64,000 bases of DNA from Parasphingorhabdus halotolerans (GTDB lineage: Bacteria > Pseudomonadota > Alphaproteobacteria > Sphingomonadales > Sphingomonadaceae): contig NZ_CP051217.1 of assembly GCF_012516475.1 (NCBI RefSeq), forward strand, positions 434,001 through 498,000, given 5' to 3'. The notes below the pieces were generated by a model. That model made no database searches, was not told where the DNA came from, and saw only the letters and a list, made by a program, of their open reading frames with translations. The position numbers and the translations under genes were made by a program. Below, piece by piece: positions 11,175 through 29,304 of this stretch (the first letter of the stretch is position 1; each line of letters begins with the position of its first letter).

Positions 11175-11773
11175 GGTCTATTTCCCTACCTTTGTGATGA
11201 GTTCCTTGATCGCACCTTTTGCCTGTTGTCCGTCGTTAAAACATATTGCGCGGATCGGAGCGTAGTTTAGCGGAGCGCGGGCCTCGTTTATATGTTGATG
11301 TTAGGCGGCCAGCTTGCGATGTTGCAAGCGCCGATGTTCGATGGTCTGTCGCTCCGATCAAAATCGCTTGCCCCACCCCTTAAATTATACTACGGTATAT
11401 TTAAAGTCAAAACTGGAGAGCGGCCATGGCCGACTGGCGGGGCAACTGGCAGCACGCGCCTTTGCGGTGCCCGCTGTCGCTGAAAGGAGAGCTCAAATGT
11501 CACGTCAACATTCGCTGTCGGTTGGTCCGATCCCAGAGAGCATTGGCATTTACGCTGATCGTGCTGCCCATTGTTGGCCAGCCCGTGAACCGTTCGCCTT
11601 GGGTCGAACCTGCAATCACGACGATCCGCGCCGGGTCCCGGTTCCTGTCGGCTTCAACGAGCCCCGGGGGTTCCATTCTCATCCGCAATGCACGGCGTTT
11701 TCAGAGCCGCCGCTCCTCTCAATTGTGCGAAAGATTCAATCCGTCATCCGGATGGGTGGACAGGATTAGCAAG
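11175..11773. other. Leader region between acyl-CoA ligase and CapA gene; possible gene remnants
   Basis: This 599-bp stretch holds the 24-bp operator (11381-11404) and two in-frame starts with good ribosome binding sites: ATG 11426 (GGAGAG six bases upstream) and ATG 11497 (AAAGGAGAG). The first frame runs open into the CapA gene; the second gives a 90-residue product ending at 11769. Neither product resembles a known family, and both have the Arg/Ser/Pro-rich look of non-selected frames. I read this as the start of an original operon whose first gene was lost or displaced when the CapA gene arrived. Confidence 0.4.
11381..11404. promoter_or_regulatory. Island operator A (24-bp inverted repeat)
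   Basis: Matches TAAATTATAY-N4-GTATA-N-TTAA with centre TACG. It lies 22 bp before the first good start codon of the CapA operon and in the divergent gap with the acyl-CoA ligase. Sixteen bases just upstream (ending CGCTTGCC) are identical to those before operator B, at the same 8-bp spacing. It overlaps the likely core promoter, so repression is the simplest reading. The TetR protein encoded at 20025-20696 is the best candidate ligand. Confidence 0.75.
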
Positions 11774-13123
11774 ATGAAGAATATTTTTCCCGTGGATTTG
11801 CCAAGAGATTTTTATCATATTGCTGACCATTTGCCAGCAGATGTGCAAAAAGCAATTTATTCACGAATTGATGAAGCTGTTATCAATAAAGAGTGGGAAT
11901 ATGCAGTTGATATTAAATTTAATGTCAAAGATATAAATTTCCTAGCATATTCGCTTTTCAAGGCAGCGAAGGCTATAAATAAGCCATTTGAAGGTTCAGA
12001 ATTAGAGAAAACTTTCAAGCCATTCGAAAAAACATATTTAAAAGTAAATGAAGGGGTAGATGTCAAGGCTGCTTACAGAGTCAGTACTTCCGGTGACTTG
12101 ATGATGGCTAAGCACATCAATGATTCAAAAGACTTTTTGTATAGCGAAGTTGATAACCACATATTTGGTGCAGATTTTAAATTTGCTAACTTGGAATCAA
12201 CTATTACTGATCGGGAAATTGAAAACCTGTCCTTTAAGAATTTGGATGAGACCCCAAAAATCAATATAACAAGATCGGAGTATAGAACACTAGTTTCTCA
12301 CCAAGATAGGCAATACGATATCGTTGAATTAGCCAATAACCACATTCTTGATTGTGGAGGAGATGGTATTCAATTAACTTTTGATGCATTAAAGGAAGAC
12401 GGTATTGGCTTTATTGGCGCTTATGAATCAGAAGAGTCGAGCAAACAGATCTTTACTAGAAATATTGGTGATGTGAAAGTTGGTTTTATCAACCATACTT
12501 TTGGTGTTAATGGCAAAAAATTCCCGACAGGAAAAGAATGGTTGGTCGATCTGACCGATTTCCATACCGGAGATAACCCGGATATCTCAAAAATTATTTC
12601 ACAGATAAAGCAGGCAAAGGCTGAATGTGAATTAGTCTTTGTCGCACTGCACTGGGGGTTGGAACATGAATTGTTCCCTCAACCCGCGCAACGTGAATGG
12701 GCTCAGGCCTTTGCTGATGCAGGAGCAGATGTTATTATTGGCCATCATCCCCATGTCATCCAACCTTTTGAATTACTGACCACCGCCGACTCTAAAAAAG
12801 TTCCCGTATTCTATAGCTTAGGTAACTTAACACCTCCTGGCGGATCTGCACATACTGCGTTAAGTTACATCGCAAACTTCACGGTTGCGAGGCAAGTAGA
12901 CGGAAAAGCATTAATTACCGAACTCGCTGCAACACCAACTGTCTTCGTTGAGCAAAGGGAGGGCACGACCAGGGGATTATTAATTCCTTTAGGTAGGCTC
13001 AATCGGCTCGAATTAGATGAAGGCACGCGTAAGTATGTTGGTGAAATTAACGAAACTGCCAAAGTAGTCTTCGGTGATCAATACTTAGAAGATGGTTTAG
13101 AGAAAATGCAGGTGATGAATTAA
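11774..13123 (+). CDS. CapA-family (poly-gamma-glutamate synthesis type) metallophosphatase-like protein
   Basis: A protein of about 449 residues from ATG 11774. The PGA_cap domain is recognisable from TSGDLMMAKHINDS, the ELANNHILDCGGDGI segment, the HWGLEHELFPQPAQREWA segment, the GHHPHVIQPFELL segment and FYSLGN, the conserved metal/phosphoesterase-like positions of CapA/PgsA proteins. No signal peptide or membrane anchor is visible, unlike classical PgsA. The gene is strikingly AT-rich (some 60-bp blocks are below 30% G+C) against G+C-rich neighbours, indicating separate recent acquisition. It is first in the operon CapA-DUF2817-RidA-racemase-permease. Members occur in operons for glutamyl polymers or peptides, which fits a peptide-like substrate. 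The exact function is unknown. Confidence 0.85.
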   Translation: MKNIFPVDLPRDFYHIADHLPADVQKAIYSRIDEAVINKEWEYAVDIKFNVKDINFLAYSLFKAAKAINKPFEGSELEKTFKPFEKTYLKVNEGVDVKAAYRVSTSGDLMMAKHINDSKDFLYSEVDNHIFGADFKFANLESTITDREIENLSFKNLDETPKINITRSEYRTLVSHQDRQYDIVELANNHILDCGGDGIQLTFDALKEDGIGFIGAYESEESSKQIFTRNIGDVKVGFINHTFGVNGKKFPTGKEWLVDLTDFHTGDNPDISKIISQIKQAKAECELVFVALHWGLEHELFPQPAQREWAQAFADAGADVIIGHHPHVIQPFELLTTADSKKVPVFYSLGNLTPPGGSAHTALSYIANFTVARQVDGKALITELAATPTVFVEQREGTTRGLLIPLGRLNRLELDEGTRKYVGEINETAKVVFGDQYLEDGLEKMQVMN

Positions 13124-13219
13124 CTCTTATCAATGTACCCTGCTAGAAACATGAATGTAAAAGCTCATGGTAGCCCGCCAAACAGAATCCCAAGACCGAC
13201 CAACCTCCATGGAGATCAC

Positions 13220-14305
13220 ATGAACACCACAAGCTACTTTTCTTCGAACTACGCACTGCAACGGCAGCGTTTTCTGGACCAAGCGACGAAAGCGCAGCTG
13301 TCAGTGGAAAGTCACCTACATCCGCTGCGCGGACGCGAAGGCGAGGAACTGGCTATGGATGTCGCGCGTCTTGGTCCGGCCGGGTCGCAACACATGCTAA
13401 TAATTACTAGCGGCACTCACGGGTTAGAGGGTTTTAGTGGTTCGGGCATCCAACTCGCGCTGATGGATGATCCTGAATTTCACGCGCTTGCAACGGCGTC
13501 CGGCGTGTCGATACTTTATGTACACGGCGTCAATCCCTGGGGCTTTTCCTGGTACCACCGCTGGACTCACGAGAATGTCGATCTCAATCGGAATTTTCTT
13601 GATTTCTCGGATTCGTCGATAACCAATGAAGGGTTTCGATACCCCGAAATCGCTGACTTTATCGTACCAGCCAATTGGCCCGATGCACAGGCAGACGAGC
13701 AGATGGCGACCTGGATCGCCGCAAACGATATGGCGGCACTGATCCAAGCGGTCACTGGCGGGCAGCGCAGTCATCCGGATGGCTTGTTCTTTTGCGGCAA
13801 TCAACCGACCTGGAGCAACCAGACATTCCGCCATGTGCTGCGCACCCATGCGGCCGGCTGTACCCAAGCGGCGATCATCGATTTGCACACCGGCCTGGGC
13901 CCTTGCGGGCATGGCGAACGCATTGTTGCGCCTCAAGATGACCGCGCCCATGCCCGGGTAAAGGCCTGGTGGGGGAACGTCACCTCGGTGGCTGACGGGA
14001 GTTCGTCGTCGGCCAAAGTTTCCGGTTACCTGTGTGGCGCGCTTGATGAAGAAATTCCCGGTGCTGAAGTCACCGCTATGGTGCTTGAATTTGGTACCGT
14101 GCCGATGCCCGAGGTCTTGGATGCATTGCGTGCCGATCAATGGCTGATCCGTCAGACCGACCCGGACCCGGTGAAGGCGGATGCCATCAAGCAACAGGTG
14201 CTGGCGGCCTTTTATGTTGATACCGACGAATGGAAACAGCAGTTGGTTGAGCAGGCCATCGAGGCCAGTCATCAGGCCGCGCGCGGGCTCGCTGGCGGGC
14301 TGTAG
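13220..14305 (+). CDS. DUF2817 (M14-like) zinc metallopeptidase/amidase
   Basis: A 361-residue protein related to zinc carboxypeptidases. The start at 13220 has a GGAG site 6 bases upstream and begins the family's usual N-terminus; the earlier in-frame ATG at 13133 has none. The zinc-binding segment is SGTHGLEGFSGSG (His and Glu ligands), with NVDLNRNFLDF and IDLHTGLGP further on; these match DUF2817 and M14-like hydrolases. No signal peptide, so it should act in the cytoplasm on imported small amides or peptides. It lies between the AT-rich CapA gene and the RidA gene on the same strand. Base composition matches the downstream genes, not CapA. Confidence 0.88.
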   Translation: MNTTSYFSSNYALQRQRFLDQATKAQLSVESHLHPLRGREGEELAMDVARLGPAGSQHMLIITSGTHGLEGFSGSGIQLALMDDPEFHALATASGVSILYVHGVNPWGFSWYHRWTHENVDLNRNFLDFSDSSITNEGFRYPEIADFIVPANWPDAQADEQMATWIAANDMAALIQAVTGGQRSHPDGLFFCGNQPTWSNQTFRHVLRTHAAGCTQAAIIDLHTGLGPCGHGERIVAPQDDRAHARVKAWWGNVTSVADGSSSSAKVSGYLCGALDEEIPGAEVTAMVLEFGTVPMPEVLDALRADQWLIRQTDPDPVKADAIKQQVLAAFYVDTDEWKQQLVEQAIEASHQAARGLAGGL

Positions 14306-14425
14306 TGACCCACGCAACCACAAACATGGCGCAGACACTGCAACAAAGAACGACCGCATCAGGCAATCGGCCAGAAATCACTATAAATAGTCCACAGAAT
14401 ATAAACTGTATGAGGAGCAAATCGT

Positions 14426-14896
14426 ATGTCAGCCGAGCAGAAACTGCAGGAACTTAAACTTGAACTGCCTCCTGTTCCGCCTCCATTTGGGGTCTACAAA
14501 CCGATTTTAATCCGGGGAAATCTGGCCTTTTTATCCGGTCATGGCCCGCAAAAATCTGATGGCTCATTTTTTATCGGGCGTGTGGGCGATGACCTATCAC
14601 AAGAGGACGGCTATGATGCCGCCCGTCAAACCGGACTTGCAATCCTCGCCACCTTAAAATCGCACTTGGGCTCTCTCGACCGGATCAATCAGGTTGTTAA
14701 GTTGTTGGGCTTCGTAAACTGCACCAGCGATTTTACACAACATCCGGCAGTCATAAACGGCTGTAGTGAGCTGTTTGCTGAGATTTTTGGCGAAGAGAAA
14801 GGTGTCGCTGCACGAAGTGCCGTCGGCACCAACGCACTGCCAGGCAATATACCAGTTGAAATCGAATGCATTTTTGAGATCGGGGAGCCTCTATAA
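14426..14896 (+). CDS. RidA/YjgF-family imine deaminase-like protein
   Basis: A 156-residue member of the RidA family, which hydrolyses reactive enamines and imines to ketones plus ammonia, or in catabolic operons acts on specific ring or amide intermediates. The fold's core is clear: FLSGHGPQKSDGSFF, then ARQTGLAILATLKSHLGSLDRINQVVKLLGFV and ARSAVGTNALPGNIPVEIECIFEI. A GGAG site precedes ATG 14426. The stop overlaps the next start by one base (TAATG), so RidA and the racemase are coupled. Next to a D-amino-acid-type oxidase in the same island, clearing imine products is a plausible role. The 120-bp gap before it holds no certain signal. Confidence 0.9.
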   Translation: MSAEQKLQELKLELPPVPPPFGVYKPILIRGNLAFLSGHGPQKSDGSFFIGRVGDDLSQEDGYDAARQTGLAILATLKSHLGSLDRINQVVKLLGFVNCTSDFTQHPAVINGCSELFAEIFGEEKGVAARSAVGTNALPGNIPVEIECIFEIGEPL

Positions 14897-15591
14897 TGAA
14901 ACACATTGGCTTGGTTGGCTGTTCTGCAGAGGGTGCCGCCTTGTGCTATCGGACAATTGTCGAAGAGGGTCGGATTAGATTGGGGGGATTTGTGCACCCA
15001 GAAGTGACCCTGCACACCTTTAATTTGCAGGACTATATGCAATATTTGGCGGGAGGACGTGTTGATTGGGAGGAGGGAGGCAAAAAACTCATCGAATCAG
15101 TGGAGAAATTGAAGAGCATTGGTGCCGATTTCGCGCTGTGCCCGGACAATACAATACATCATGGCGTGGATCTGGTGAGGGACCGAATTCCCTTGCCGTA
15201 CCTACATATCTGTGATGTCGTTGCCGACGTCGCGAAGCAGCACAACTATGCCAAGGTTCTTGTACTGGGAACCCGCTTTACCATGCGCGGGACGATCTAC
15301 CAGCGCGCCATGTCAGCAGTGGGTATAGAGTGTGTGACACCCACGGATGAGGAGGTTGCCGAACTGGATCGCATTGTTTGGGAAGAACTGCTCTCCGGGA
15401 AATTTGTGCCGCAATCAATAGCTTACTACCAGCAGGTAATCGACAGGTACAAACACGAGGGGTGTCAGGCGGCAGTGCTGGGTTGCACCGAAATTCCCCT
15501 GATTATCAATGACGATAACTCATCATTACCCACGCTCGATTCAACCCGTTTGTTGGCGCTGGCCGCACTTGACATGGCGCTGTCTGACTAG
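14896..15591 (+). CDS. Aspartate/glutamate racemase superfamily protein
   Basis: A 231-residue cofactor-independent racemase-fold protein. The two catalytic cysteines of the superfamily are present: one in ADFALCPDNTIHHG and one in AAVLGCTEIPLII; KVLVLGTRFTMRGTIYQR also matches. The first motif is CPDN rather than the common CNTAH, so the substrate may not be plain Asp or Glu; hydantoin racemases and maleate isomerases share the fold. The start overlaps the RidA stop, and a permease gene follows 126 bp later. In this operon it would interconvert enantiomers of an amino acid or derivative. Confidence 0.87.
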   Translation: MKHIGLVGCSAEGAALCYRTIVEEGRIRLGGFVHPEVTLHTFNLQDYMQYLAGGRVDWEEGGKKLIESVEKLKSIGADFALCPDNTIHHGVDLVRDRIPLPYLHICDVVADVAKQHNYAKVLVLGTRFTMRGTIYQRAMSAVGIECVTPTDEEVAELDRIVWEELLSGKFVPQSIAYYQQVIDRYKHEGCQAAVLGCTEIPLIINDDNSSLPTLDSTRLLALAALDMALSD

Positions 15592-15717
15592 ACCTATCGT
15601 CGACGGGGCTCTCACTTGGATGTGAGATGCCCTCACCTCTGGATTTGTCAGTCACTTAAATATCCTTGATTGAGACTTCACACGCGAAGCAATCGGCACC
15701 TGAATAGGAATTGAAAT

Positions 15718-17091
15718 ATGCAACGGACAATCGGGTTGTGGGGGGTGGTGGCTACTCTGGTTGGCTTTGTTGTCGGTGCAGGAATTTTCATTCTTCCAGG
15801 GGAACTGGCAGCAACCGCCGGTCCCGGCGTTATTATCTCATATGCTTTAGCTTCAATCTTAGTCGCATTCTCCTGCATTATTGGCGCCTTCGTAAGCGGA
15901 ATCGTTCCAGTTAGCGGCGCCAGTTTTGTTTATTCGACAAAAATGACCTCACCTTTTTTAGGTTTTCTGATGATCTGGGCAATTATTGCCGGCGCGTCGA
16001 TGGGAGTTGCGTTCGTGGCTCATGGTTTCGCCGAATATTTGGAAGTTCTTTTGCCCGGAAGGAACAAGACACTGGTTGCAGTGATGATCGTTCTGTTTTT
16101 TGGCGGCATAAACCTTTTTGGCGCTGTCGCTTCCGTCAAAGCACAGACATTGATGGTAATTACTTTTGTGACTTCGGTTCTGGTTTTTTCTGTTGTGGGT
16201 ATAGCTCAGATTGATACCGATCTTCTTGTTCCCTTTACCCCGAATGGTTTCGGACCAGTTTTGATGGCAGCGGTTCCGGCCTTTTTTTCCTATGCCGGAT
16301 TTTTAATGATTATCGATATCGGCGGGGAAATCAAAAACCCTTCCCGGACAATCCCGCTGGGATTGCTGATCAGTTTCCTGTTAGTCTGGCTGTGCTATTC
16401 GGCCGTGTCGCTGACAATCGTTGGTAGCATTCCCTGGCAGCTGCTCGCCAATATTGATGCGCCGGTTGCTACCGTCGCGGGGAAAATCTTTCCGGACTGG
16501 GCCAAAGATATAATTCCCTGCGCTGTTCTGGCTGCCGCCGCCACCACAATAAACGGATTGCTACTGGCTTATTCCCGGGATGTTTATGTATTATCCCGGG
16601 TGCGGATTTTTCCTGAAATATTGTCAACACTCTCAAAGAAGCACGGCGAGCCTTCTTACGCGGTGGCTCTGCTGACAGTGACTTCAGTTATTTCTGTATT
16701 GATGGGAGCCCAAATATCTGAATACGCAACGCTTGTTGTAGTAGTCCTCATGCTTAGTCAGATTTTGCTCGGAATAGCGACACTCCGCTTACCGAAGATA
16801 ATGCCCCGCAGATTATCAAATTTGGAATTTAGACTCAGCTCCTTCTGGCGAGTATTTTTCGCCGTGGGTCTTATCGTTTTCTCAAGTCTTTTTATCGTCA
16901 TTGGCCTACAAAGTAATCCAAAATCTTCCGTGTTATTCGGTTTGTTTTTACTGTTTGGAACTACCTATTATTTGCTGCGTAAGAATTACCTGAAAGGGCG
17001 CGGTATCGACATGGAGAACTCGGTGATGGGATATATCGAAGAAACTATTGCACAGTCTCAGGAACAAAATATGCCTCTCAGTGACAGGTGA
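15718..17091 (+). CDS. APC-family amino acid/polyamine permease
   Basis: A 457-residue inner-membrane transporter with about 12 hydrophobic segments. The first, GVVATLVGFVVGAGIFILPG, carries the APC signature (GxG(I/V)F) of the substrate-binding unwound helix. YAGFLMIIDIGGEIKNPSRTIPLG is the conserved TM6-loop motif of amino acid permeases. It is last in the CapA-DUF2817-RidA-racemase operon, so it probably imports the operon's amino-acid-like substrate or product. Intact, with normal length. Confidence 0.9.
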   Translation: MQRTIGLWGVVATLVGFVVGAGIFILPGELAATAGPGVIISYALASILVAFSCIIGAFVSGIVPVSGASFVYSTKMTSPFLGFLMIWAIIAGASMGVAFVAHGFAEYLEVLLPGRNKTLVAVMIVLFFGGINLFGAVASVKAQTLMVITFVTSVLVFSVVGIAQIDTDLLVPFTPNGFGPVLMAAVPAFFSYAGFLMIIDIGGEIKNPSRTIPLGLLISFLLVWLCYSAVSLTIVGSIPWQLLANIDAPVATVAGKIFPDWAKDIIPCAVLAAAATTINGLLLAYSRDVYVLSRVRIFPEILSTLSKKHGEPSYAVALLTVTSVISVLMGAQISEYATLVVVVLMLSQILLGIATLRLPKIMPRRLSNLEFRLSSFWRVFFAVGLIVFSSLFIVIGLQSNPKSSVLFGLFLLFGTTYYLLRKNYLKGRGIDMENSVMGYIEETIAQSQEQNMPLSDR

Positions 17092-17418
17092 CAGATCTCG
17101 GGCCGCAGCAGGTCTGTCCAGTCGGCACTTCGGCCTCACCAGCTTTCTGGCCGATGTGATGGATTATTCTCCTGCCCCTTGGCCACAGACGGGTTTAAGG
17201 AAATCTGATGCCTGCCTTGACGGTTGTTCCGGGTTACGCAAGCTGGGCGCGAAGGAGCAACCACGCAAATTTGAAACCCACAACAACCATGGTTTTAACG
17301 AATTGAACGGTCGCATCACTGCCTGACACGCGCGCAGTGACGTTCAGGCCGGAATTAATGGCTGTTTTTCCTTGATATCTGTGGTCTTTTAAGTCTCTTT
17401 TGCGGATTTCAGGCGCAC
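17092..17418. other. Non-coding stretch after the permease
   Basis: About 330 bp between the permease and a probable transposase remnant. No frame resembles a gene, and no strong hairpin or palindrome was found. It is probably junction debris between two acquired segments. Confidence 0.4.
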
Positions 17419-17676
17419 CTATCCCGCGGCTGCACACCGCTCATGGAAGATCAGGCGGTCGAAGTTGTAGGCAAAGATAGGCAGCGTGAGTTTTGCCTGT
17501 GCAATGGCAATGCCGGCGGTGTGGATGCAAGGGTCATAGCGGTTTTTCTGATGGGCAAAAACAAGCTCGACCTTGGCGTCATCGTTATAGCAGAGGCCCT
17601 TGACCCGATGCGGCCGGAAGCGTCCGAACTCCGCCTTGCTCGCCAACGCCTCCAGCGAATGCAGGAATTCCGCCAA
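17419..17676 (-). pseudogene. Probable transposase C-terminal remnant
   Basis: An 85-codon fragment whose end (KLTLPIFAYNFDRLIFHE) has the look of the C-terminus of DDE transposases (LPI-AYN-R), which suggests an IS fragment. It has no ribosome binding site or start context and is flanked by non-coding DNA. It lies between the permease and the TonB receptor promoter and may mark how the two were joined. The family is uncertain. Confidence 0.35.
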
Positions 17677-17758
17677 TCTCCTGCACCGGGCTCCTGTGAC
17701 GGCCGATTCCTTCCGAGGTTAAACCAGCACGCCAATCAAAATCGCTTGCCTTATCCGA

Positions 17759-17782
17759 TAAATTATACCACAGTATATTTAA
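17759..17782. promoter_or_regulatory. Island operator B (24-bp inverted repeat)
   Basis: TAAATTATAC-CACA-GTATAT-TTAA, differing from operator A at only three central bases. It lies 28 bp upstream of the TonB receptor start, between it and the GGGAGGA ribosome binding site. The sixteen bases ending CGCTTGCC, 8 bp upstream, are shared with operator A. Confidence 0.75.
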
Positions 17783-17810
17783 TTGGAATATCTAGCGGGA
17801 GGATTTTGAA

Positions 17811-19973
17811 ATGCATATTGGACAACGCAAGCACACTTTGCTGAGATTTACGTCGGTAATTCCGCTGGTTGCAGCCGCAATGATCGGTCAGACAGCCTCA
17901 GCCCAAGAGACAGAAGAGGCCGCAGAATCGGGTCTCAATGTCATCGTCGTGACCGCACAAAAACGCGAACAGAACGTCCAGGACGTCCCGCTCGCCGTCT
18001 CTGTCACCACCGGCGAGGATCTGGAACGGCTGCAGGTCAATAACATCGAATCCTTGCAATTTTCGACCCCATCACTGGTCGTTGCTGGTCAGGACCCTTC
18101 GCGCAAGACCTTCGGCATTCGCGGCATCTCGGACCAGTCACGCAATGCCGGATTCGACAACCGAATCGGCGTCTATGTTGATGGCGTCTGGGTCGGCCGC
18201 TCGGCCGCATCGAACCAGGCTGTGCTCGATGTGGCCTCGATCGAAGTCCTGCGCGGGCCGCAGGGAACGCTGTTTGGCAAGAACACGGTGGCTGGTGCGA
18301 TCAACATCATCACTGCGAAGCCGGAATTCGGTACCAGCGGATATGTCGAAGCAGAATACGGCAACTATGACAATCGTCGCCTCAAGGGCATGCTGAATGT
18401 CGCTGCATCAGACAATGTCGCGATGCGCGTTTCAGGCATGATTCATAAGCGCGATGGCTTCGTGCAGAACCTCTTCAATGGCCTGGATTATGATAACCGT
18501 GACGACTACGGATTGCGCGGTCAATTGCTGATCGAGCAAGGTGATACGTCGCTCTATATCACGGCGGATACTGCGCAATTCAAAAGCCGTGGTGCTGTCA
18601 CCGGCGAACTCATAATTGACCCCCGCGCGCCCAATCCGCGCGAATTTGCAATCGACGAGTTGCAGAATTACAAAATCGGTGTTGACGGGCTTTCTGCGCA
18701 GGTCGATCATGAATTCGGAAACGGCGGCACGCTGACCTCGATCACGGCGTTTCGCACAAGCAGCTATTTTGTCGAAGGAAACGACGAGGATAACACTCCG
18801 TTCGCTTTCGCATTTACCAAGCCGGCCTTCGAAGATACGAGCCATTTTTCGCAGGAAATCCGCTATGCGTCCGACGATAGCGGGCGGTTCGATTATGTGG
18901 TCGGCCTGTACTATCTGACGCAAGACATTCAGGGAGGCGGGACAGCAACGGCTTTTGCGCCAGCGATTAATCCTTTGGCACCGCCGGTTTTTGTCTCGGT
19001 GAATCAATTTGGCACGGTAAAATCTCAAAGCTACGCGATTTTCGCCCACACGAATTTCGACATAACCGACCGGCTTGAACTGACTGCAGGCGCACGTTTC
19101 AACAAGGAAGACAAGTCGGTTGATTACAAGATCACCGACACGTCGGGGTTGTTCACCAATGGCGCGCTCAAAGACAAACGCTCATCCAGCGATTTCTCGC
19201 CCACGGTGAGCCTGAACTATGACGTGACCGACGATGTTATGACCTATGTGCGATACGCACGTGCCTACAAGAGCGGCGGCTGGAACACTGATTTTGTGCC
19301 CTCCGTACCTGACATCGGATTTGACGACGAAAGCGTCGATGCATTCGAAGTCGGCCTCAAGTCGCTACTTTTTGACCGCCGCCTGCGGCTTAACCTTTCC
19401 GCCTATCTGTCCAAGCACAGCGACTTCCAGGTGTTTGCCTTTACCCAGCTGTCAAATGGAGGATCAGCAATTAATGTGACGAATGCAGGCAAGGTCACGA
19501 GCAAAGGTTTTGAGGTTGAAGCCGATGTTCAACCAGTCAAGTGGCTCAATCTTTTCTTTAATTATGGCTACAACGATACCAAGTTCGACAGCTTCAAGAA
19601 CGGTGGCGGGCCAGGTGTTGATTTTGACGGCAATCGCCCAGCAGAAGCGCCAAAGCACAACCTCAATCTTGGCATCGCCACTGATTTCGATCTGGGCTTC
19701 GCAAATTTGATGATCCAGGGCGACTACAATTATCGTAGCTCCTTCTTCTCCAACCCGAACAATCTGCCAATCAACCTGAATAGCTCGCTGGAACAGGTCA
19801 ATCTGCGCGCAGGCCTTGATTTCGGAAACGTCTCGGTCTTTGGCTGGATGCGCAACGCGTTCGATGTCACGACGCAGATCTACAACCGTCGAACGTTCCT
19901 CGGCGCATCAAAAGCTTCGTACAATAGCCCGCAAACCTACGGCGTTACGGTCAAGGTCGAATTCGGGAAGTAA
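17811..19973 (+). CDS. TonB-dependent outer-membrane receptor
   Basis: A 720-residue outer-membrane transporter for a compound too large or rare for porins. A signal peptide ends near AQTASAQE-type residues (QTASAQETEE). A TonB box-like segment (NVIVVTAQKREQ) is followed by the plug domain (NVQDVPLAVSVTTGEDLERL, later GVYVDGVWVGRSAASNQ, then EVLRGPQGTLFGKN) and a beta barrel rich in alternating aromatic strands ending VTVKVEFGK. Start 17811 has a GGGAGGA site. It belongs to the large sphingomonad receptor group whose substrates include plant, aromatic and peptide compounds. Operator B precedes it, so its substrate is probably that of the island pathway. Confidence 0.94.
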   Translation: MHIGQRKHTLLRFTSVIPLVAAAMIGQTASAQETEEAAESGLNVIVVTAQKREQNVQDVPLAVSVTTGEDLERLQVNNIESLQFSTPSLVVAGQDPSRKTFGIRGISDQSRNAGFDNRIGVYVDGVWVGRSAASNQAVLDVASIEVLRGPQGTLFGKNTVAGAINIITAKPEFGTSGYVEAEYGNYDNRRLKGMLNVAASDNVAMRVSGMIHKRDGFVQNLFNGLDYDNRDDYGLRGQLLIEQGDTSLYITADTAQFKSRGAVTGELIIDPRAPNPREFAIDELQNYKIGVDGLSAQVDHEFGNGGTLTSITAFRTSSYFVEGNDEDNTPFAFAFTKPAFEDTSHFSQEIRYASDDSGRFDYVVGLYYLTQDIQGGGTATAFAPAINPLAPPVFVSVNQFGTVKSQSYAIFAHTNFDITDRLELTAGARFNKEDKSVDYKITDTSGLFTNGALKDKRSSSDFSPTVSLNYDVTDDVMTYVRYARAYKSGGWNTDFVPSVPDIGFDDESVDAFEVGLKSLLFDRRLRLNLSAYLSKHSDFQVFAFTQLSNGGSAINVTNAGKVTSKGFEVEADVQPVKWLNLFFNYGYNDTKFDSFKNGGGPGVDFDGNRPAEAPKHNLNLGIATDFDLGFANLMIQGDYNYRSSFFSNPNNLPINLNSSLEQVNLRAGLDFGNVSVFGWMRNAFDVTTQIYNRRTFLGASKASYNSPQTYGVTVKVEFGK

Positions 19974-19980
19974 ATTGCGG

Positions 19981-20008
19981 GGCGGGTAGCTTGAAAGAGC
20001 TGCCCGCC
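19981..20008. terminator. Hairpin terminator between convergent TonB receptor and TetR genes
   Basis: GGCGGGTAGCT and AGCTGCCCGCC form an 11-bp stem (one G-T wobble) around TGAAAG, seven bases after the receptor stop. The T-tract on the plus strand is weak (AATCTT). It lies between two convergent genes and could serve both. Confidence 0.6.
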
Positions 20009-20024
20009 AATCTTGCGGACTCGT

Positions 20025-20696: not shown

Positions 20697-20717
20697 CTTA
20701 CAGACTTACAAGCATGT

Positions 20718-22372: not shown

Positions 22373-22435
22373 CTAATCCCCTCTCGCTGCTGCGTTCTAC
22401 AAGCGGCCTAACCCATTACCGCTTGCCACGCCAGA

Positions 22436-22459
22436 TAAATTATATCATTGTATAGTTAA
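22436..22459. promoter_or_regulatory. Island operator C (24-bp inverted repeat), divergent promoter
   Basis: TAAATTATAT-CATT-GTATAG-TTAA. It lies 18 bp upstream of the GTG start of the M81 gene and 64 bp upstream of the MFS start, so one site can control both the degradative operon and the operon encoding TetR itself. The upstream CGCTTGCC box is present at the same 8-bp spacing as in A and B. Confidence 0.75.
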
Positions 22460-22477
22460 TCGGAGGGGAATCGAACC

Positions 22478-23946
22478 GTGAAAATCTTCATCGCCTGTCT
22501 GGCCACTGAGACGAACAGTTTTTCACCGGTGCCCACCGGATGGTTCGGCTACGAGGAACCTGGCCTTTATTATGGCGACGCGACACAGCACCCCCCTGTC
22601 GCATTTAACGTTGTCCTCCATGAATGGCGCCGCCTCGCTGAAGCCGAAGGGCACGAGGTTTTCGAAAGCGTGTCGGCCATGGCCCAACCGGCTGGGCCCA
22701 CGGTTCAGGATGTTTACGACACGCTGAGCGGGCGGATTTGCGACGATCTGCGCGCCGCAGGCGATGTCGATATCATCCTGTTGCAAATGCACGGCGCTAT
22801 GATCGCCGAGAAAACCCTTGATTGCGAAGGGGATCTGATTGGTCGGCTACGCGCAATCGCCGGGCCGGATGTGATGATCGGTGCGGAGTTTGATCCTCAT
22901 TGCCACCTTACCGACGAGATGCTCGGGGCCACGGATGTCATGGTCTTCTACAAGGAATACCCGCACACCGATATCGCTGAGCGCGGGCGTGATTTGTACA
23001 AGCTGGCGATGGAAGCCCACAATGGCGCAACCAAACCTGTGATGCGGGTATTCGATTGCCGCATGATCGGAATGTATCTGACGCCGATTGAGCCGATGCG
23101 CTCCTTCGTGGACCGGATGTTCGCAGCGGAAGGCAAAGACGGCGTCCTGTCGCTATCACTGGTACATGGCTTCCCATGGGGAGATTCCCCCGAGGTCGGC
23201 ACCAAGATGCTGGCAGTGTGCGACGGCAATGCAGATCAGGCGCAAAGGCTGGCGGAAGAATTCGGCCGCGAGATATGGGATCTGCGGGAGAACTTCAGGA
23301 TTGGCCGCCCGGGTATCGAAGAGACGCTCGACAGCCTTGGCGACATGTCGGACGGGCCATATGTACTGGCTGACGTGGCGGACAATCCAGGTGGCGGCTC
23401 ACCAGGCGATTCCACCTTCATCCTTGCCGAAATCCTGCGCCGGAAAATCCGCGATGTCGTATTGGGCATCTATTGGGACCCGATCCTTGTCCAGATCATC
23501 GAAGATGCTGGCGTTGGGGCCACCCTGCCCGTCCGGCTCGGCGGCAAAATTGGCCCCAGCTCAGGTGATCCAATTGATTTAATCGTCACAGTCCGCGCCA
23601 TCGGCAAGGATATGTCGCACGCCCTGGGTGAGAGCTCGATGGTTCTGGGCACGCTGGTCTGGCTGGAAGCCGACGGCGTTCATCTGTTCGTCAACACCAT
23701 CCGGACACAGGTGTTCGAACCAGCTCCGTTCCTGGAACTGGGCATCGATCTGTCCGCAATGAAGTTTTTGATCGTCAAATCGACCCAGCACTTCTTCGAG
23801 GCATGGGCTCCGCTGGGCACATCTGTACACTATGTCAGCACGCCTGGGGGATGCCGTTCGATGTTGCGCAAATCCCCTATACCCGTCTCACGCGGGCTGT
23901 TTGGCCATTGGCCGACGTCGACCCGTTCTCGATCGCTGCGGAATGA
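22478..23946 (+). CDS. M81-family (MlrC-like) metallopeptidase, frame broken by one missing base
   Basis: A zinc metallopeptidase of family M81, whose best-known member MlrC cleaves the linear products of microcystin. The GTG start has CGGAGGGG upstream. Zinc ligands are visible: Asp139 and His141 in EFDPHCHL, and His163 in YKEYPHTD. The frame breaks at the five G's at 23846-23850: one extra G restores a conserved end (MPFDVAQIPYTRL, ending DPFSIAAE) and a stop at 23944-23946 that overlaps the next gene's ATG by ATGA. Restored length is 489 residues. No signal peptide, so it is cytoplasmic. First gene of the operator-C operon. A sequencing undercall is more likely than real loss. Confidence 0.88.
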
Positions 23947-25879
23947 TCTGGCGGACTTTTTGCGGCCTGCTTGCGCTGCTGGCAATGTCGCTGGCGAGCC
24001 CGGTGTGGCCCCAGACACCGTCGCAGACCCAGAATTGCCCCGGGCCCGACATTGACGCTGCCGCTTTGCGGATCGAGGCGGACGCCCGGATCGAAACCAT
24101 GCGGCAAGCCGCGCATATTCCCGGCGCGACCCTGTCGGTTGTCTATTGCGGCAAAGTGATCCTGCAGCGCGGCTACGGATTTGAAGACATTGAGCGCGGC
24201 GCGCGGGTTGACCCAGAACAAACTCTGTTCAGGATCGGATCGGTCAGCAAGACGCTGACCTTTGTCGCACTGATGCAATTGGTCGAGCAAGGCCGTGTTG
24301 ATCCGGACGCGCCAGCACAAACCTATCTCAAAGACCTCAACCTGCCCACTTTCGGCGGGCGGAAGATTCTGGTGCGTGATCTGTTTACCCACCGCTCAGG
24401 CTTCGAAGATCGCGCCGCCGGCATCCTGTTCAACCATGGTACAAGCGGGATAATCGGGTTGCGGCAATGGCTCGACCAAACCATGCCCGAACTGGTACGC
24501 ATGCCGGGTAAGAAGACAGTATACTCAAATTACGGTGCGACGCTTGCCGGGCTGATCGTGGAAAACGTCTCGGGTGAGCCGTTTCACGCCTACATCGAAA
24601 AACACATTTTCGGCCCGCTGGACATGCGCGCGACGAGTTTTCGCGAGCAAGACATGCCGCGCGGTTTCCCGACCCTCGATCCGCAACTAGCGAGCCGGAT
24701 TTCGACCGGCTATTTCTACCGCAATGGCGCTTTCGAGCCGCAACCCTTCACCCACATTTGGCATGCGGCCCCGGCCGGCTCGGCTTCCGCCACCGCCAGC
24801 GACATGGCCCGATACATGCTCGGAATCTTGCGCGGCACTGAATTGCTCCAGCGTTCGACCATAGAGCGGATGCAGCAGCGGCCCTATCCGGACAATCCGA
24901 CCGCCCCAGGCTATGCCTGGGGCTTTCGCACCGGCTGGATTAAGGGCTTTCCCACGTTCGAGCATGGCGGGTCTGCCTACACCCATTTCAGCGCCATGGT
25001 AATGGTTCCGGATCGCCAGATCGGCGTCTTCGTTAGCGTCAATGGTGCTGACGATCATGATGCGCCGCGCAAACTGGCCACAAGCCTGGTCGAGGGAATG
25101 ATCCCGCAGGCAAAGCCCATTCCGGGCTGGAGCGCTGCCACCGGACTGACACCTGCTGAACTTGAGAAGCATGAAGGCAACTACCTTATCGACCGGACCA
25201 ACTATTCACGTCTGTCGAAATTCCTCGGCCCCTTGATGGGCGCACGCAAAGTCGTGGGCCAGCCAGGCGGGACGCTCAACATTCAGGGCGGCGCGGAAAG
25301 CGGCGTCTATCGCCGTGTCGCGCCGGGGACATTCCATGACCCGGAGACGGGCTCCATAGTGCAATTCACCTACGGGCCTGACGGGCGCGCCCTGCGAATG
25401 TCTGCCGCTTACGGACATTACGGGTTTGACCGGATTGGCTGGTGGCAGACGCTCGGGCCTTTGGACTGGTGCTGGCTGCTGTGGCTTTGCTGGCTCTGTG
25501 GCATCTTGTCTGGGTTCGACCGCGCAGGCTGGCGGGCAAGGAAGCACAGGGCGTGTCGGCACCTCTCGCGCAGCTTACCACTGTGAAAGCTGTGGCCGGG
25601 CTGGCCTTTGCCGCTGCGCTCGTAGCGGCGGTCTTACAGATTGGCTTGCTGGGAGAGGCATTGGCCTTTGACTGGCCCGGGTCGGGGCTGTGGGTCGCGC
25701 TTGGGATGCAATATATCTGGCTGGCGCTGGTGCTGGCCACTGCCGCCATCGCCGCACGGGCCGCCATTGCCCGATCGCTGCCCAAGGGCGCGATGATCTG
25801 GCTGATCTTGGTTCTCGTGGCTGACGTCTTGCTCATTGCGCAGCTGTGGCAATGGAACCTAATCACGCTCTCGTTGTGA
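23943..25879 (+). CDS. Class C beta-lactamase-related serine hydrolase with C-terminal membrane domain, frame broken by one missing base
   Basis: A periplasmic or membrane-bound S12-type peptidase/amidase/esterase. A signal peptide (FCGLLALLAMSLASPVWPQ) is followed by catalytic motif SVSK (Ser100, Lys103), YSN at 194-196 and a later HGGSAY. After about residue 500 the frame is lost: another frame (25442-25879) supplies about 145 residues with four hydrophobic helices, a known tail in this group. One added G near 25437-25446 (TGGTGG before CAGACG) joins the halves into a 645-residue protein. Its ATG overlaps the restored M81 stop. MlrB of the microcystin pathway belongs to the same broad family, but that likeness does not prove the substrate. 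Confidence 0.87.
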
Positions 25880-25890
25880 GCTGTGCCGGC

Positions 25891-27153
25891 ATGACAAAGC
25901 GCCATTTCAATATCATCGGCGGCGGTTTGGTCGGGATTTCCACTCTGTACGAGCTGGTTTCGCGCGGCCACGAAGCTACCCTGTTCGAGGCCGAGGAAGA
26001 GCTTGGCCGCGGGGCCAGCTTTGCTAATGGCGGGATGTTGACGCCTTCGATGCCCGATCCGTGGAACGGGCCGGGGGTGGCAGGCCATTTGATGGCATCG
26101 CTGTTCGATCCGAAATCCTCGATGAAGCTGCATCTCTCGCAAGTGCCAGCGCTGGCTGGCTGGGGGCTGCGCTTCCTTGCCGCCTCAGGACGCGCCCAGC
26201 ACCAAGCAACGACACTGGCCAATTACCGGCTGTGCGCCGCGTCAGTTGAACGAACCCGCGAGCTGACCGCGCGATTGGGTCTACAATATGACCAATCCGA
26301 CGCTGGCACGCTAAAGATATTTGAGAGCGCACAGGCCATGGCTGGCCCTCTGGAGCTGGCCGATCGGCTGGCCGAGGCAGGCCTGCGGTTCGACAAGCTG
26401 GACGCCGCAGGTGCGGTGGCAGCGGAGCCCCAGCTTGCGGCTATCGGGCATCGCATCGCTGGCGCTTTGCGTTTCCCCGACGATGGGGTGGGTGATGCGC
26501 GCAAGTTCGTTCTCGCGTTGGCCGAGAAAGCGCGCGAGCTGGGCGGCACGATCAGACTGGGCGCACGAGTGGACAAATTGCTCACGCGCAACAGCCGGAT
26601 TGAAGGTGTCGCTTCTGGCGGAGAAGAACACCACGGCGAAGTTGTCCTGTGCACAGGCGTTTGGAGCCCGGAGCTTGCGCGGCAGGTCGGCCTGCCGATC
26701 CCGGTCAAGCCGGCCAAGGGATACAGCGTTTCGGTTGCAGCGGGCGCACTGGGCAATCGCATGCCGCGCCTGCCGGTAATCGACGATGCCATGCACGCCG
26801 CTGTGGTGCCCTTAGGGCACCGTCTGCGCTTTGTCGGGACGGCCGAATTCGCCGGATTTAATCGTCGGATCGACCAACCCCGTGTCGATAACCTGATTGC
26901 TTTGTTCGAGCGCGTGTATCCCGATCTCGTGAGCAATCTCGATCTATCGGATGCGCGGCCATGGGCGGGCCTGCGCCCGATGAGCGCCGAGGGCAGACCA
27001 ATCATTCAAAAATCCCCGCGAGATGGCCTGTGGCTCAATTGCGGGCACGGCCATCTGGGCTGGACCATGGCCAGCGGGTCGGCGGAATTGCTGGCCGATC
27101 TAATCGAGAGGAAGCCGAACGCTTCGGCGGACGACTTTCGCAAGTTCGGTTGA
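25891..27153 (+). CDS. FAD-dependent amino acid oxidoreductase, DadA (D-amino acid dehydrogenase)-like
   Basis: Oxidizes an amino acid, probably a D- or N-substituted one, to the 2-oxo acid via an imine, passing electrons to the membrane chain. The 420-residue DAO-fold protein has the N-terminal dinucleotide motif NIIGGGLVGISTLYEL, then RGASFANGGMLTPS, a motif typical of DadA, and the C-terminal FAD contact WAGLRPMSAEGRPII with GHGHLGWTMASGSA. ATG 25891 was chosen because the fold begins there; the earlier ATG lies in the preceding gene. The gap to the serine hydrolase is 11 bp. The RidA protein in the same regulon could hydrolyse its imine product. Confidence 0.9.
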   Translation: MTKRHFNIIGGGLVGISTLYELVSRGHEATLFEAEEELGRGASFANGGMLTPSMPDPWNGPGVAGHLMASLFDPKSSMKLHLSQVPALAGWGLRFLAASGRAQHQATTLANYRLCAASVERTRELTARLGLQYDQSDAGTLKIFESAQAMAGPLELADRLAEAGLRFDKLDAAGAVAAEPQLAAIGHRIAGALRFPDDGVGDARKFVLALAEKARELGGTIRLGARVDKLLTRNSRIEGVASGGEEHHGEVVLCTGVWSPELARQVGLPIPVKPAKGYSVSVAAGALGNRMPRLPVIDDAMHAAVVPLGHRLRFVGTAEFAGFNRRIDQPRVDNLIALFERVYPDLVSNLDLSDARPWAGLRPMSAEGRPIIQKSPRDGLWLNCGHGHLGWTMASGSAELLADLIERKPNASADDFRKFG

Positions 27154-27183
27154 ACGACAGCCACAGATTTTCGCGAGGGCGAA

Positions 27184-28293
27184 ATGAAAATTACCGACGT
27201 GACGGTCACCCTGTTTAAATGGGAAAATATCCCGTCCAAGAGCTACGATCACGAAGTCAAAGTTAAGGGCAACAGCACCGACCTGGGCCTAGTGCGGATA
27301 CACACAGATGAGGGCATCGAAGGCCATGCCTTGTTGGGCCTGTGCGTCGACCCGGCCAGGCTTGAGGCGCCCTACATCATCCGCTTCCTCAAGCCGATCC
27401 TGATGGGCCAGGACCCGCTCGACCGCGAGCGGCTGTTCCAGAGCATGTCGCGTATGCGGGCTCAGGTCAACACGATTGCTGTCTGCGCGCTCGACATCGC
27501 CTTGTGGGACCTTGCTGGCAAGATCAGCGGCCTGCCAATCTATGCCCTGATGGGCACTTTCCGCCACAAGATCCCCGTCTACGCGAGCTCTGAACAGCAT
27601 GAAACGCCTGAAGGCTATGCGGAGCAGGCACTGGCCATCAAGGAACGCGGGTTGCACGGCTACAAGCTTCACCCGACCCAGCGCTGGCGGGAAGATATAG
27701 CCGCCTGTCAGGCTGTGCGCGAGGCGGTAGGCAATGATTTCAACCTGATGCTGGATTCCCGTTCGGCCTATGATCTAGGCGAGGCCGTGAGGGTCGGTCG
27801 CGCGATCGAGGAGTTGGGGTTCCAGTGGTACGAAGATCCCCTGCCCACGACCGACATCTACAATTATGCCAAGCTGCGGGAAAAGCTCGATATCCCGGTA
27901 ATGGCCACCGAATTTCCGGCGGGCTGGATTGATGACTACGCCCCGTGGATCATGAACATAGCCACCGACATGTTGCGCGGCGACGTGATGATTAAAGGCG
28001 GCATAACCTCGATGCTCAAGATTGCCCATCTCGCAGAAGCTTTCGCCATGAAGCTGGAAATTCATCACGGCGGAAATTCCATGAACGATGTAGCCAATCT
28101 CCACGTCCAGATGGCGATCCCGAACACCAGCTTCATGGAAGTTCTGCTTCCCCACGAGGCGTGGTGGCATGGTCTTGTCGAAGAGATTCAGATCGGGTCC
28201 GATGGCTTCGTCCATGCGCCAACCAAGCCGGGGCTTGGTTACGAAATCGATCTCGATCTGGTCGAGCGGCAGAAGATTGCTGTGCTGAGCTGA
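27184..28293 (+). CDS. Enolase-superfamily (mandelate racemase/muconate lactonizing) enzyme
   Basis: Abstracts the proton alpha to a carboxylate to dehydrate, racemize or lactonize its substrate. The 369-residue product shows the superfamily's metal ligands in NLMLDSRSAYD, FQWYEDPLP and VMATEFPAG, the first catalytic strand GYKLHPTQRW (a KxH in place of KxK) and the barrel-end base LEIHHGGNSMND. The HHGGNS ending resembles the mandelate racemase and acid-sugar dehydratase subgroups. It follows the FAD oxidoreductase by 30 bp and ends the operator-C operon. Convergent with the TauD-type dioxygenase. The exact reaction cannot be told from sequence. Confidence 0.9.
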   Translation: MKITDVTVTLFKWENIPSKSYDHEVKVKGNSTDLGLVRIHTDEGIEGHALLGLCVDPARLEAPYIIRFLKPILMGQDPLDRERLFQSMSRMRAQVNTIAVCALDIALWDLAGKISGLPIYALMGTFRHKIPVYASSEQHETPEGYAEQALAIKERGLHGYKLHPTQRWREDIAACQAVREAVGNDFNLMLDSRSAYDLGEAVRVGRAIEELGFQWYEDPLPTTDIYNYAKLREKLDIPVMATEFPAGWIDDYAPWIMNIATDMLRGDVMIKGGITSMLKIAHLAEAFAMKLEIHHGGNSMNDVANLHVQMAIPNTSFMEVLLPHEAWWHGLVEEIQIGSDGFVHAPTKPGLGYEIDLDLVERQKIAVLS

Positions 28294-28312
28294 ATCCGCC
28301 GCGCAGCTGACA

Positions 28313-29188
28313 CTAAAGCGCGGCTTCCGACACGGGGTCGCCGGCGATCCGCGAATGGAGCATCACCCGCGGCTCGGAATAATCCCAGTCGCACGCCCGG
28401 TGCATCAGGCAGCGGTTGTCCCACACAACCACGTCGCCAGCGGTCCAACCGTGCTGATACACGCAGCTTTCATCCGCGACGGCGAATTGGAGGAGGCGAT
28501 TAATCAGGGCCGATGAATCCGCATCGGTCATGCCGGGAATGCCATAGGCGTGCCTGCCGACGGCCAGCGCCTTTCGCCCCGTTTCGGAATGAATCTTGAC
28601 CAGCGGTCGCAGCGGCACTTCCGCAACATCGAGGCCATAACCGATATATTCGCTGTCGCCAGCCTTGGTTTCCTCGCCCAGTTCGGCCTGGCTGTGCGCG
28701 AGTGAATGATGGGCCGAAAGTTTGGCGATCAAGGCCTTCGTGCCATCGTCAAGTGCGTCATAGGCGGCGCGCATATCGGCGAAGGCCGTGTCGCCTTTGG
28801 AAGACGGAACCCGCTTGGCGCTGAACACGGCACCTTTGGCCTGCAGCGGCATATAGGTGTTGTCCTGATGCCAATGCATGTTGCCGCGGATGATCTTCAT
28901 CATGTCGTCGTCGGGCGCGTCTCTGAGCTGTCCGTTTGGCAGGACGTTGCTGATCTCGATGGCTTCGAGGCCTTCCACCAGCTTGCCAAACCGCTCAGCA
29001 AACGCCTGCTGCTCGCTATCGCTCAGATGCTGCGCGGGAATGATCAGCAGGGCATAGTCGAGCCATGCTTGATACAGCTCTGCGAAGGCAGTGTCGTCTA
29101 GCGAACGGACATCGATATCTCGAACGACCATGCCGAAAGTCTTATCCAACGGCTGCAGCCGGAATGGGCTTTTCTGATCGATCCGCAC
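28313..29188 (-). CDS. TauD/TfdA-family Fe(II)/2-oxoglutarate dioxygenase
   Basis: Hydroxylates its substrate with O2 and 2-oxoglutarate, often releasing a leaving group such as sulfite or an ether-linked acid. The 291-residue product has the iron ligands HWHQDNTY (His and Asp) and the distal His in VVVWDNRCLMHRA, followed by the 2-oxoglutarate-binding Arg near the C-terminus (EPRVMLHSR). It begins at a GTG with a strong GGAGG seven bases before. It diverges from the TPP operon across a gap holding operator D. The nearest described roles are taurine, 2,4-D and alpha-ketoglutarate-dependent sulfonate oxidation, but no substrate can be assigned. Confidence 0.92.
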   Translation of the reverse strand: MRIDQKSPFRLQPLDKTFGMVVRDIDVRSLDDTAFAELYQAWLDYALLIIPAQHLSDSEQQAFAERFGKLVEGLEAIEISNVLPNGQLRDAPDDDMMKIIRGNMHWHQDNTYMPLQAKGAVFSAKRVPSSKGDTAFADMRAAYDALDDGTKALIAKLSAHHSLAHSQAELGEETKAGDSEYIGYGLDVAEVPLRPLVKIHSETGRKALAVGRHAYGIPGMTDADSSALINRLLQFAVADESCVYQHGWTAGDVVVWDNRCLMHRACDWDYSEPRVMLHSRIAGDPVSEAAL

Positions 29189-29280
29189 TGCCGCGCCTCC
29201 ATAATTTACTCAGGCTTGAGCCACCAACACTCAACATCAAAAGCTATGAATGTCATACTTACCACCACTTTCGGTTGCAA

Positions 29281-29304
29281 TAAATTATATATTTGTATAA
29301 TTAA
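29281..29304. promoter_or_regulatory. Island operator D (24-bp inverted repeat), divergent promoter
   Basis: TAAATTATAT-ATTT-GTATAA-TTAA. It lies 50 bp upstream of the TPP enzyme start and 92 bp upstream of the TauD-type gene, in their divergent gap. This copy lacks the CGCTTGCC box at the standard spacing. Confidence 0.75.

Follow-up and report, generated by a model that had tools for sequence, protein, structure and literature searches.

Which protein recognizes the 24-bp palindrome that stands four times in the window analysed here, a stretch of 64,000 nucleotides from Parasphingorhabdus halotolerans, and what does it control? A sequence-only reading had assigned the repeats to a TetR-family repressor encoded among them. 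On the sequence comparisons described below, the TetR-family protein of the mobile element in which the repeats lie most likely uses all four as its operators, and would repress about 17 genes.

The pattern TAAATTATAY-N4-GTATA-N-TTAA matches the window with 0 mismatches at 11381–11404 (copy A, TAAATTATACTACGGTATATTTAA), 17759–17782 (copy B, TAAATTATACCACAGTATATTTAA), 22436–22459 (copy C, TAAATTATATCATTGTATAGTTAA), and 29281–29304 (copy D, TAAATTATATATTTGTATAATTAA), all on the plus strand, and the positions read earlier for four near-identical inverted repeats are exact. Copy A precedes a CapA/DUF2817/RidA/racemase/permease operon and copy B a TonB-dependent receptor gene; copy C lies in the divergent gap between an MFS gene (minus strand) and an M81 gene (plus strand), and copy D in that between a TauD gene (minus strand) and a thiamine-diphosphate enzyme gene (plus strand). 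No match to the pattern arose in 100 dinucleotide shuffles at up to three mismatches. The genome-wide search that the sequence-only reading had proposed as a check found, in the complete genome of 3,269,179 bp and at the same tolerance, only these four places; the motif is not scattered across the chromosome. Among 31 congeners, the motif is absent at this tolerance from 19, occurs in 11 with three mismatches only, and in one with two; none has a match at 0 or 1 mismatch. With two mismatches allowed, 8 of 199 genomes of the family contain the motif, including the window's own; in the other seven the matches are scattered and carry one or two mismatches, and three of these genomes belong to one genus in which a reversed control pattern matches too. 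At three mismatches, a 24-bp match was found in just one (G085) of three genomes with TetR relatives, distant from its TetR gene. For the site scan, the weight matrix was derived from these same four sites. At 46320, within an ABC transporter gene, there is a weaker match, which is taken as chance. Any two of the four copies agree at 18–22 of 24 positions. A common block, CGCTTGCC-N8-operator, extends upstream of copies A, B, and C; the upstream flank of copy D agrees with those of the other copies at 5–8 of 24 positions, which is the chance level, so that copying of a single larger region does not by itself account for the repeat.

All four sites belong to a 33.2-kb element whose ends are marked by 26-bp direct repeats (3141–3166 and 36321–36346, both plus strand), the left one at the 3′ end of a tRNA-Ser gene (3065–3154). 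The flanking repeats, together with a tyrosine integrase gene (3308–4459, plus strand) adjoining the tRNA-Ser, characterize it as a tRNA-targeted integrative element. It also carries a TrwC relaxase gene (4501–7380), and no secretion genes were found among the subset of its open reading frames (ORFs) that was scanned. A DNA search revealed no related island on plasmids: the best 20 of 23 records each cover at most 2 per cent of the query, in short stretches that are IS-related or AMP-binding. Confinement of the motif to one mobile element fits a regulator encoded by that element.

The repeats had been described as lying 18–50 bp upstream of operon starts. The distances for copies A to D are 21 (or 93 if a second start is used), 28, 18, and 51 bp, which gives 18–51 bp for the preferred starts. 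This second in-frame start of operon A, at 11498, has a better ribosome site than that at 11426. For the operon at copy D, 29356, which has the ribosome site GGAGGACA, reads better as the true start than 29304, which overlaps the repeat. Divergent gaps had been recognized at copies C and D; copy A lies in one as well, a gap of 251 bp between an AMP-binding gene and the CapA-like gene that contains an IS remnant (11227–11353). Eight nucleotides before copies A, B, and C, the block CGCTTGCC (11365–11372, 17743–17750, and 22420–22427, plus strand) may serve as a −35 region. A consensus scan found no sigma-70 promoter at the four sites, a point against the operator reading; it gave 7 promoters (shuffle mean, 11.5) and 22 terminators (shuffle mean, 21.4), and its predictions were therefore not used.

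The sequence-only reading had placed about 16 genes under one repressor; about 17 are counted here, in several predicted operons that include that of TetR itself, and these would probably be repressed together. On the plus strand, operon A would comprise genes for a CapA-like (PGA_cap) protein (11426–13123, or from 11498), a DUF2817 protein (13133–14305), a RidA/YjgF-like protein (14426–14896), a member of the Asp/Glu/hydantoin racemase family (14896–15591), and an amino-acid permease (15718–17091), and operon B the gene for the TonB-dependent receptor (17811–19973). Leftward from copy C (minus strand) run genes for an MFS transporter (21056–22372), a 113-aa ORF with no family assigned (20718–21059), and the 223-aa TetR-family regulator (20025–20696). 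Rightward (plus strand) follow an M81-family metallopeptidase that is MlrC-like, though far below the MlrC cut-off (22478–24055), a serine beta-lactamase-fold hydrolase (23832–25586, the true start probably later), an FAD-dependent D-amino-acid dehydrogenase-like protein whose best NCBIfam models score below their cut-offs (25846–27153), and an enolase superfamily protein of the mandelate racemase type (27184–28293). Copy D separates a TauD-type dioxygenase gene running left (28313–29188, minus strand) from plus-strand genes for the thiamine-diphosphate enzyme (29356–30902; ORF listed from 29304), an aldehyde dehydrogenase split over two frames (30942–32353), and a PhyH-type dioxygenase (32355–33512). 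The substrate is perhaps D-amino-acid or peptide-like. Annotation of the M81 protein as microcystinase MlrC was rejected (NF041767, 297.1 bits against a cut-off of 999), leaving membership in the M81 superfamily only, and so was a microcystin pathway, since the MlrC cut-off is not reached and no MlrA occurs among the ORFs scanned. Relatives of the M81 protein occur on one Sulfitobacter and one Roseomonas plasmid, but in other surroundings, close to an XRE regulator and to TRAP or ABC genes, and so do not point to the pathway. The element also contains a MarR-family gene (34215–34673, plus strand) that the sequence-only reading left unmentioned.

The TetR protein matches Pfam TetR_N (PF00440; E = 2.1e-14; 53.4 bits against a cut-off of 24) and has the helix VTVGLIRHYF and an N-terminal arm, RRGRPP. 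Its AlphaFold model (pLDDT 84), which has structural matches to TetR proteins, predicts an all-helical TetR fold with a C-terminal ligand domain. Gaps of −4 and 21 bp in the series MFS–113-aa ORF–TetR suggest one operon starting at copy C, with TetR as its third gene, and one TetR gene was found among the element ORFs scanned, in agreement with the earlier view of it as the only one in the cargo. The same palindrome precedes several operons and the regulator's own, which is the arrangement of a local self-controlled TetR regulon. A search for close relatives of the protein in 84,980 species genomes gave four loci with 27–45 per cent identity over short parts only (L049–L052), and the best 15 of 137 plasmid records show 24–31 per cent identity.

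Independent support comes from the promoters of TetR relatives. The exact 10/10 core TATAC-N4-GTATA occurs in the own promoters of two relatives from other genera that are about 30 per cent identical: L020, which has two exact copies and faces a divergent AMP-binding/amino-acid permease operon, and L034, which faces a divergent Rieske dioxygenase gene. A further TetR clade (L021, L070, L071, L072, and L078) has an 8/10 core, TATAC-N4-GTTCA. The 48 TetR loci tested were the best matches fetched (batches of 29, 10, and 9), a subset of the matches in those genomes; L040, with no tblastn match, was dropped from the enrichment count and the helix correlation. In the remaining 47 promoter windows, a core of at least 8/10 was matched 11 times (10 loci), where the sequence of these loci outside the windows predicts 0.29, an enrichment that is inflated in its raw form by related sequences and for which window and threshold were chosen after a first look. 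The more similar the recognition helix, the higher the core score (Spearman 0.58; P = 2e-5; 47 loci, L025 and L038 entered with helix score 0), and of the nine loci that share at least 7 of 10 helix residues, six have an 8/10 core. The helix type VDVALISYRF and its close variants (nine loci) have a different palindrome of their own. In these comparisons, the predicted operator sequence follows the recognition helix.

With L025, L038, and L040 dropped from the arm-spacer and letter-order counts, and L049–L052 left out of these as well as of the enrichment and helix analyses, exact 5-bp inverted repeats with spacers of 0–8 were compared across 45 TetR promoters; TATAC-N4-GTATA is one of just 8 arm-spacer types, out of 9,216, that occur in at least two loci. 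When the loci are clustered at 45 per cent identity, an 8/10 site is present in 5 of 21 clusters, and the 29 other arm letter orders reach 0–4, so that TATAC ranks first of 30, though only modestly. Without clustering, TCAAT reaches 11 loci against 10 for TATAC, a count that largely reflects another clade's own palindrome, and TATAC with a 10-bp spacer also reaches 10 loci. L069/L079, the closest relative in sequence (41 per cent identity, helix 9/10), reaches a core of 7/10 at best in the promoter window; a single 8/10 place (L069:3606) lies well away from that window, and 39 kb at L069/L079 contain no good 24-mer. No core site was found in L090, L030, and L045, in which 6 of 10 helix residues are the same, and none stands out in L049–L052. 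The assignment of TetR as ligand is thus supported by the core in relatives, the confinement of the motif, and the predicted fold, whereas the 41 per cent relative, with no clear promoter site, speaks against it.

Palindromes are also bound by MarR proteins, and the MarR-family protein is the only other regulator among the element ORFs scanned. That the sites belong to it is nevertheless very improbable: there is no site upstream of its gene, the MarR–P450 stretch has a 99 per cent copy elsewhere in the genome that lacks the site, and the core occurs in none of the promoter windows of 29 MarR relatives (0.22 expected). A regulator encoded in the host chromosome outside the element is conceivable insofar as the genome (G000) holds five TetR-type matches, the element's own included; with no further site in these 3.27 Mb, and none at 0–1 mismatches in the 31 congeners, no other host use of the motif is seen, and we consider this origin improbable.

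The repeats might instead form leader RNA structures (acting, for example, in mRNA stability) or be a mobile repeat without regulatory role: hairpins with a four-base loop fold there with energies of −2.0 to −3.8 kcal/mol, which most shuffles do not match, and copies A, B, and C share their upstream block. These hairpins are weak and nearly all A-T, however, the same core stands at the promoters of TetR relatives themselves, copy D keeps the repeat without the shared flanks, and the genome has no copies elsewhere, which leaves this explanation hardly credible. Another reading accepts the TetR protein and makes it mainly an activator, or dual, at these sites: activation is known for some TetR-type proteins, LuxR with DNA (activation) is among the fold matches, and a consensus promoter is absent at the sites. 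The sites stand directly before the ribosome sites at the preferred starts, a position typical of repressors, from which we judge this reading unlikely.

What the analysis shows is where the sites lie and that they are confined to the element, how the genes are ordered, that a TetR fold is predicted, and that promoters of TetR relatives have the core. Under the preferred reading, in which the element's TetR protein represses at all four repeats, a TetR dimer, or dimer pair, would bind TATAY-N4-GTATA through its recognition helices and block RNA polymerase at the four promoter regions leading into about 17 genes, its own operon at copy C included. A substrate or intermediate in the ligand domain would then open all operons together. 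Uptake would proceed through the TonB receptor at the outer membrane and the MFS transporter and amino-acid permease at the inner membrane, hydrolysis through the M81 protein and the beta-lactamase-fold hydrolase, and amino-acid oxidation and onward steps through the D-amino-acid dehydrogenase-like protein, RidA, the thiamine-diphosphate enzyme, the aldehyde dehydrogenase, and the dioxygenases. In this scheme we infer binding, repression over activation, operon extents, inducer, and pathway. A tentative and rather doubtful extension has two layers, in which the helix would read the core and the AT-hook-like RRGRPP arm the AT-rich wings; on this view, the element copied a single promoter-operator block to give A, B, and C, fitted D independently, and would so have gained a private regulon free of cross-talk. 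The arm is absent from L020 and L034, and the operator wings are A/T at 9–10 of 10 positions here versus 6 of 10 in L034 and 3 of 10 in L020 (scored copy).

Fold matches of the TetR model include the DesT–DNA structures 3lsr and 3lsp, DesT having been seen with oleoyl-CoA, at an identity to the element's protein of only 17 per cent; unlike the DesT operator, the repeats here have TATAC/GTATA arms that AT-rich wings extend to 24 bp. Longer operators are bound by two dimers in the case of CprB and some other TetR proteins (PMC4150764), and the present operator is likewise at least 22 bp long; its 24-bp site may take one dimer or two. The mycobacterial TetR repressor KstR has 83 predicted regulon genes in M. 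smegmatis and the motif TnnAACnnGTTnnA with a 2-bp centre (PMC1995591). Both systems join one TetR-type repressor to one palindrome at many promoters, including its own, and to catabolic genes; unlike in KstR as described there, the centre here has 4 bp between AT-rich arms, and a single mobile element contains all the sites (PMC1995591). PheR, an IclR system, is a parallel only (PMC13273656). The motif is not named in the open-access literature searched. Local TetR regulons such as that of KstR are already known, and the present case would be an ordinary type of switch in a new setting.

The locus offers a testable regulator–operator pair that would govern an entire catabolic program on a mobile element. 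About 17 genes should respond to one small deletion or to a single inducer, which would help find the substrate, and related bacteria could be fitted with the promoter-operator pair as part of a sensor. More broadly, an acquired island can bring a regulatory circuit with sites that are absent from the host chromosome.

The pattern TAAATTATAY-N4-GTATA-N-TTAA is matched without mismatch at 11381, 17759, 22436, and 29281 (copies A, B, C, and D, respectively), as the sequence-only reading had claimed, and 100 dinucleotide shuffles contained no match at three or fewer mismatches. The four 24-bp inverted repeats are real and are not a product of chance. A genome scan, which that reading had proposed as a check, found these four copies and no fifth repeat in the whole 3.27-Mb genome at ≤3 mismatches. 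Among 31 congener genomes scanned at the same threshold, 19 had no match, 11 had only matches with three mismatches, and one had a match with two. A symmetric weight matrix, derived from the four sites themselves, scores them at 31.7–34 bits; the next-best match in the window (15.3 bits) sits within an ABC transporter gene. Columns 1–9, 15–19, and 21–24 do not vary among the copies, column 10 holds C or T, column 20 differs between copies, and the centre (11–14) varies freely, with TATAY-N4-GTATA as the inner core.

CGCTTGCC lies 8 nt 5′ of the repeat in copies A, B, and C, and the 24 bases preceding the repeat are identical at 19 positions between A and B; copy D has neither CGCTTGCC nor the upstream bases common to A and B. 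Because the upstream sequence is common to A–C and absent at D, A–C look like duplicates of a single promoter block, and D looks to have retained or acquired the repeat alone. A consensus promoter scan found no promoters at the repeats; our guess is that CTTGCC acts as a −35 element, with the −10 element within the repeat. Insertion sequence remnants lie 5′ of copy A (11227–11353) and copy B (17398–17577); they were called from plasmid matches, and among the matches listed several carry an IS3 and one an IS5 transposase annotation.

All four sites fall within a 33.2-kb element at a tRNA-Ser gene (3065–3154), delimited by a 26-bp direct repeat (3141–3166 and 36321–36346) and carrying a tyrosine integrase (3308–4459) followed by a TrwC-type relaxase. 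At the right end, approximately 106 bp (36321–36426) are 81 per cent alike to the left-end stretch 3141–3246, a similarity that may reflect tandem or successive insertions at tRNA-Ser. Elsewhere in the window, a dispersed repeat of approximately 85 bp (47120–47204) recurs in at least 33 further genome places at 76–93 per cent identity (40 of 81 candidates scored).

By Pfam, operon A encodes, in order, CapA-like, DUF2817, RidA, racemase, and amino-acid permease proteins, and operon B a TonB receptor. Operon C runs leftward (MFS, a 113-aa ORF, and TetR) and rightward (M81 peptidase, beta-lactamase-fold hydrolase, D-amino-acid dehydrogenase-like, and enolase-type proteins), as does operon D (TauD leftward; thiamine-diphosphate enzyme, aldehyde dehydrogenase, and PhyH rightward). 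The four operons comprise 17 genes, in place of the first estimate of about 16, when the split aldehyde dehydrogenase is taken as one. Many within-operon gaps are short, but operons A and C contain gaps of 120, 126, and 259 bp, and their extents are therefore inferred. The aldehyde dehydrogenase gene (30942–32353) is either broken or affected by a sequence error, since Pfam places its first half in ORF 30942–31934 and its second half in ORF 31193–32353, in two frames.

The regulators among the scanned element ORFs are TetR (20025–20696), with a clear TetR_N domain, and MarR (34215–34673). The structure model of TetR is confident, and its best structural matches include DNA-bound TetR-type proteins. 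As the other regulator, MarR might read the four sites instead, but this alternative is weak: the site was not found 5′ of the MarR gene or in the promoters of 29 MarR relatives (none with a place ≥8/10 to the core TATAC-N4-GTATA), and the MarR–P450 stretch (34197–35908) has a 99 per cent identical copy elsewhere in the genome (G000:C1:1894124–1895835) without any site. Most likely, judging from sequence, the regulator is a self-controlled TetR repressor acting on the four candidate sites.

Relatives of TetR were sought in genomes of the family (199), the order (396), and the class (385), which are overlapping sets. The same core recurs in promoters of such relatives, which argues for TetR as the reader. 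In locus L020 the core occurs twice without mismatch, as TATACAATCGTATA and TATACGTCTGTATA, 5′ of TetR in the stretch that separates it from an AMP-binding/permease/peptidase operon, and L034 has TATACATTTGTATA 5′ of TetR, between it and a Rieske dioxygenase. Five members of a clade with recognition helix VSVGLINHHF (L021, L070, L071, L072, and L078) have TATAC-N4-GTTCA; L022 has TAAAC-N4-GTTCA, L083 TGAAC-N4-GTTTA, and L084 (helix VSIGLINHHF) TGAAC-N4-GTTCA, all retaining the AC-N4-GT spacing of the island sites. The best match, L069 (41 per cent identity; the next by E-value have 25–33 per cent, with values up to 52 per cent only over short parts), however, has no good site at its promoter and no good 24-bp match in the surrounding 39 kb, although its helix is identical to the island's VTVGLIRHYF at 9 of 10 residues. 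Since an integrase and a TonB receptor lie alongside, L069 may be a remnant. At L079 (G389; 10623–18367), the closest TetR relative has a TonB receptor and a tyrosine integrase as neighbours, and the locus may be left over from a related element. In L080, a dyad, CTATATATCACGAAATATAG (6279–6304), lies 5′ of a second TonB receptor-like ORF, approximately 7.8 kb from the TetR gene.

Across promoter windows of 47 TetR loci, 11 places in 10 loci (L020, L034, L021, L070, L071, L072, and L078, plus L035, L043, and L046 with one 8/10 place each) score ≥8/10 to the core, compared to 0.29 expected from the rest of those loci, with window and threshold chosen after a first look at the data. Core score correlates with helix similarity (Spearman 0.58; P = 2e-5; n = 47). 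Kinship among loci affects the raw count: after clustering at 45 per cent, the site is in 5 of 21 clusters. TATAC then ranks first of 30 letter orders (two others reach 4), whereas before clustering TCAAT had 11 loci and TATAC 10. The exact-repeat test is cleaner: 8 of 9,216 arm–spacer types recur in at least two of 45 promoters, TATAC-N4-GTATA among them. Because a separate TetR clade, whose helix is VDVALISYRF or a near variant, shows its own palindrome, ATTCA-N8-TGAAT, in the promoters of nine loci (L023, L024, L026, L028, L033, L037, L073, L074, and L075), this test seems to pick up true clade operators.

The N-terminal RRGRPP arm of the island TetR, which we take to resemble an AT-hook, may read the AT-rich wings of the operator. 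This is suggested by the 24-bp operator length together with the arm, and by L020 and L034, which lack the arm and have fewer wing A/T (3/10 and 6/10, respectively, in the copy scored; 9–10/10 at the island sites). L069 has a GRPP arm but no site was found there, and it gives no help to the AT-hook likeness.

KstR governs a local TetR regulon through one palindrome at many promoters (PMC1995591), comparable to the four island sites read from sequence, and TetR proteins that bind at least 22 bp as two dimers are known (PMC4150764), compared to 24 bp here. The island system belongs to this known kind, the local TetR regulon, and the kind itself is not new. TetR dimers would occupy the promoter directly 5′ of the ribosome site until freed by a substrate-derived ligand. 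Judging by its protein families, the cargo would import and degrade a compound resembling an amino acid or a peptide, which may contain D-residues.
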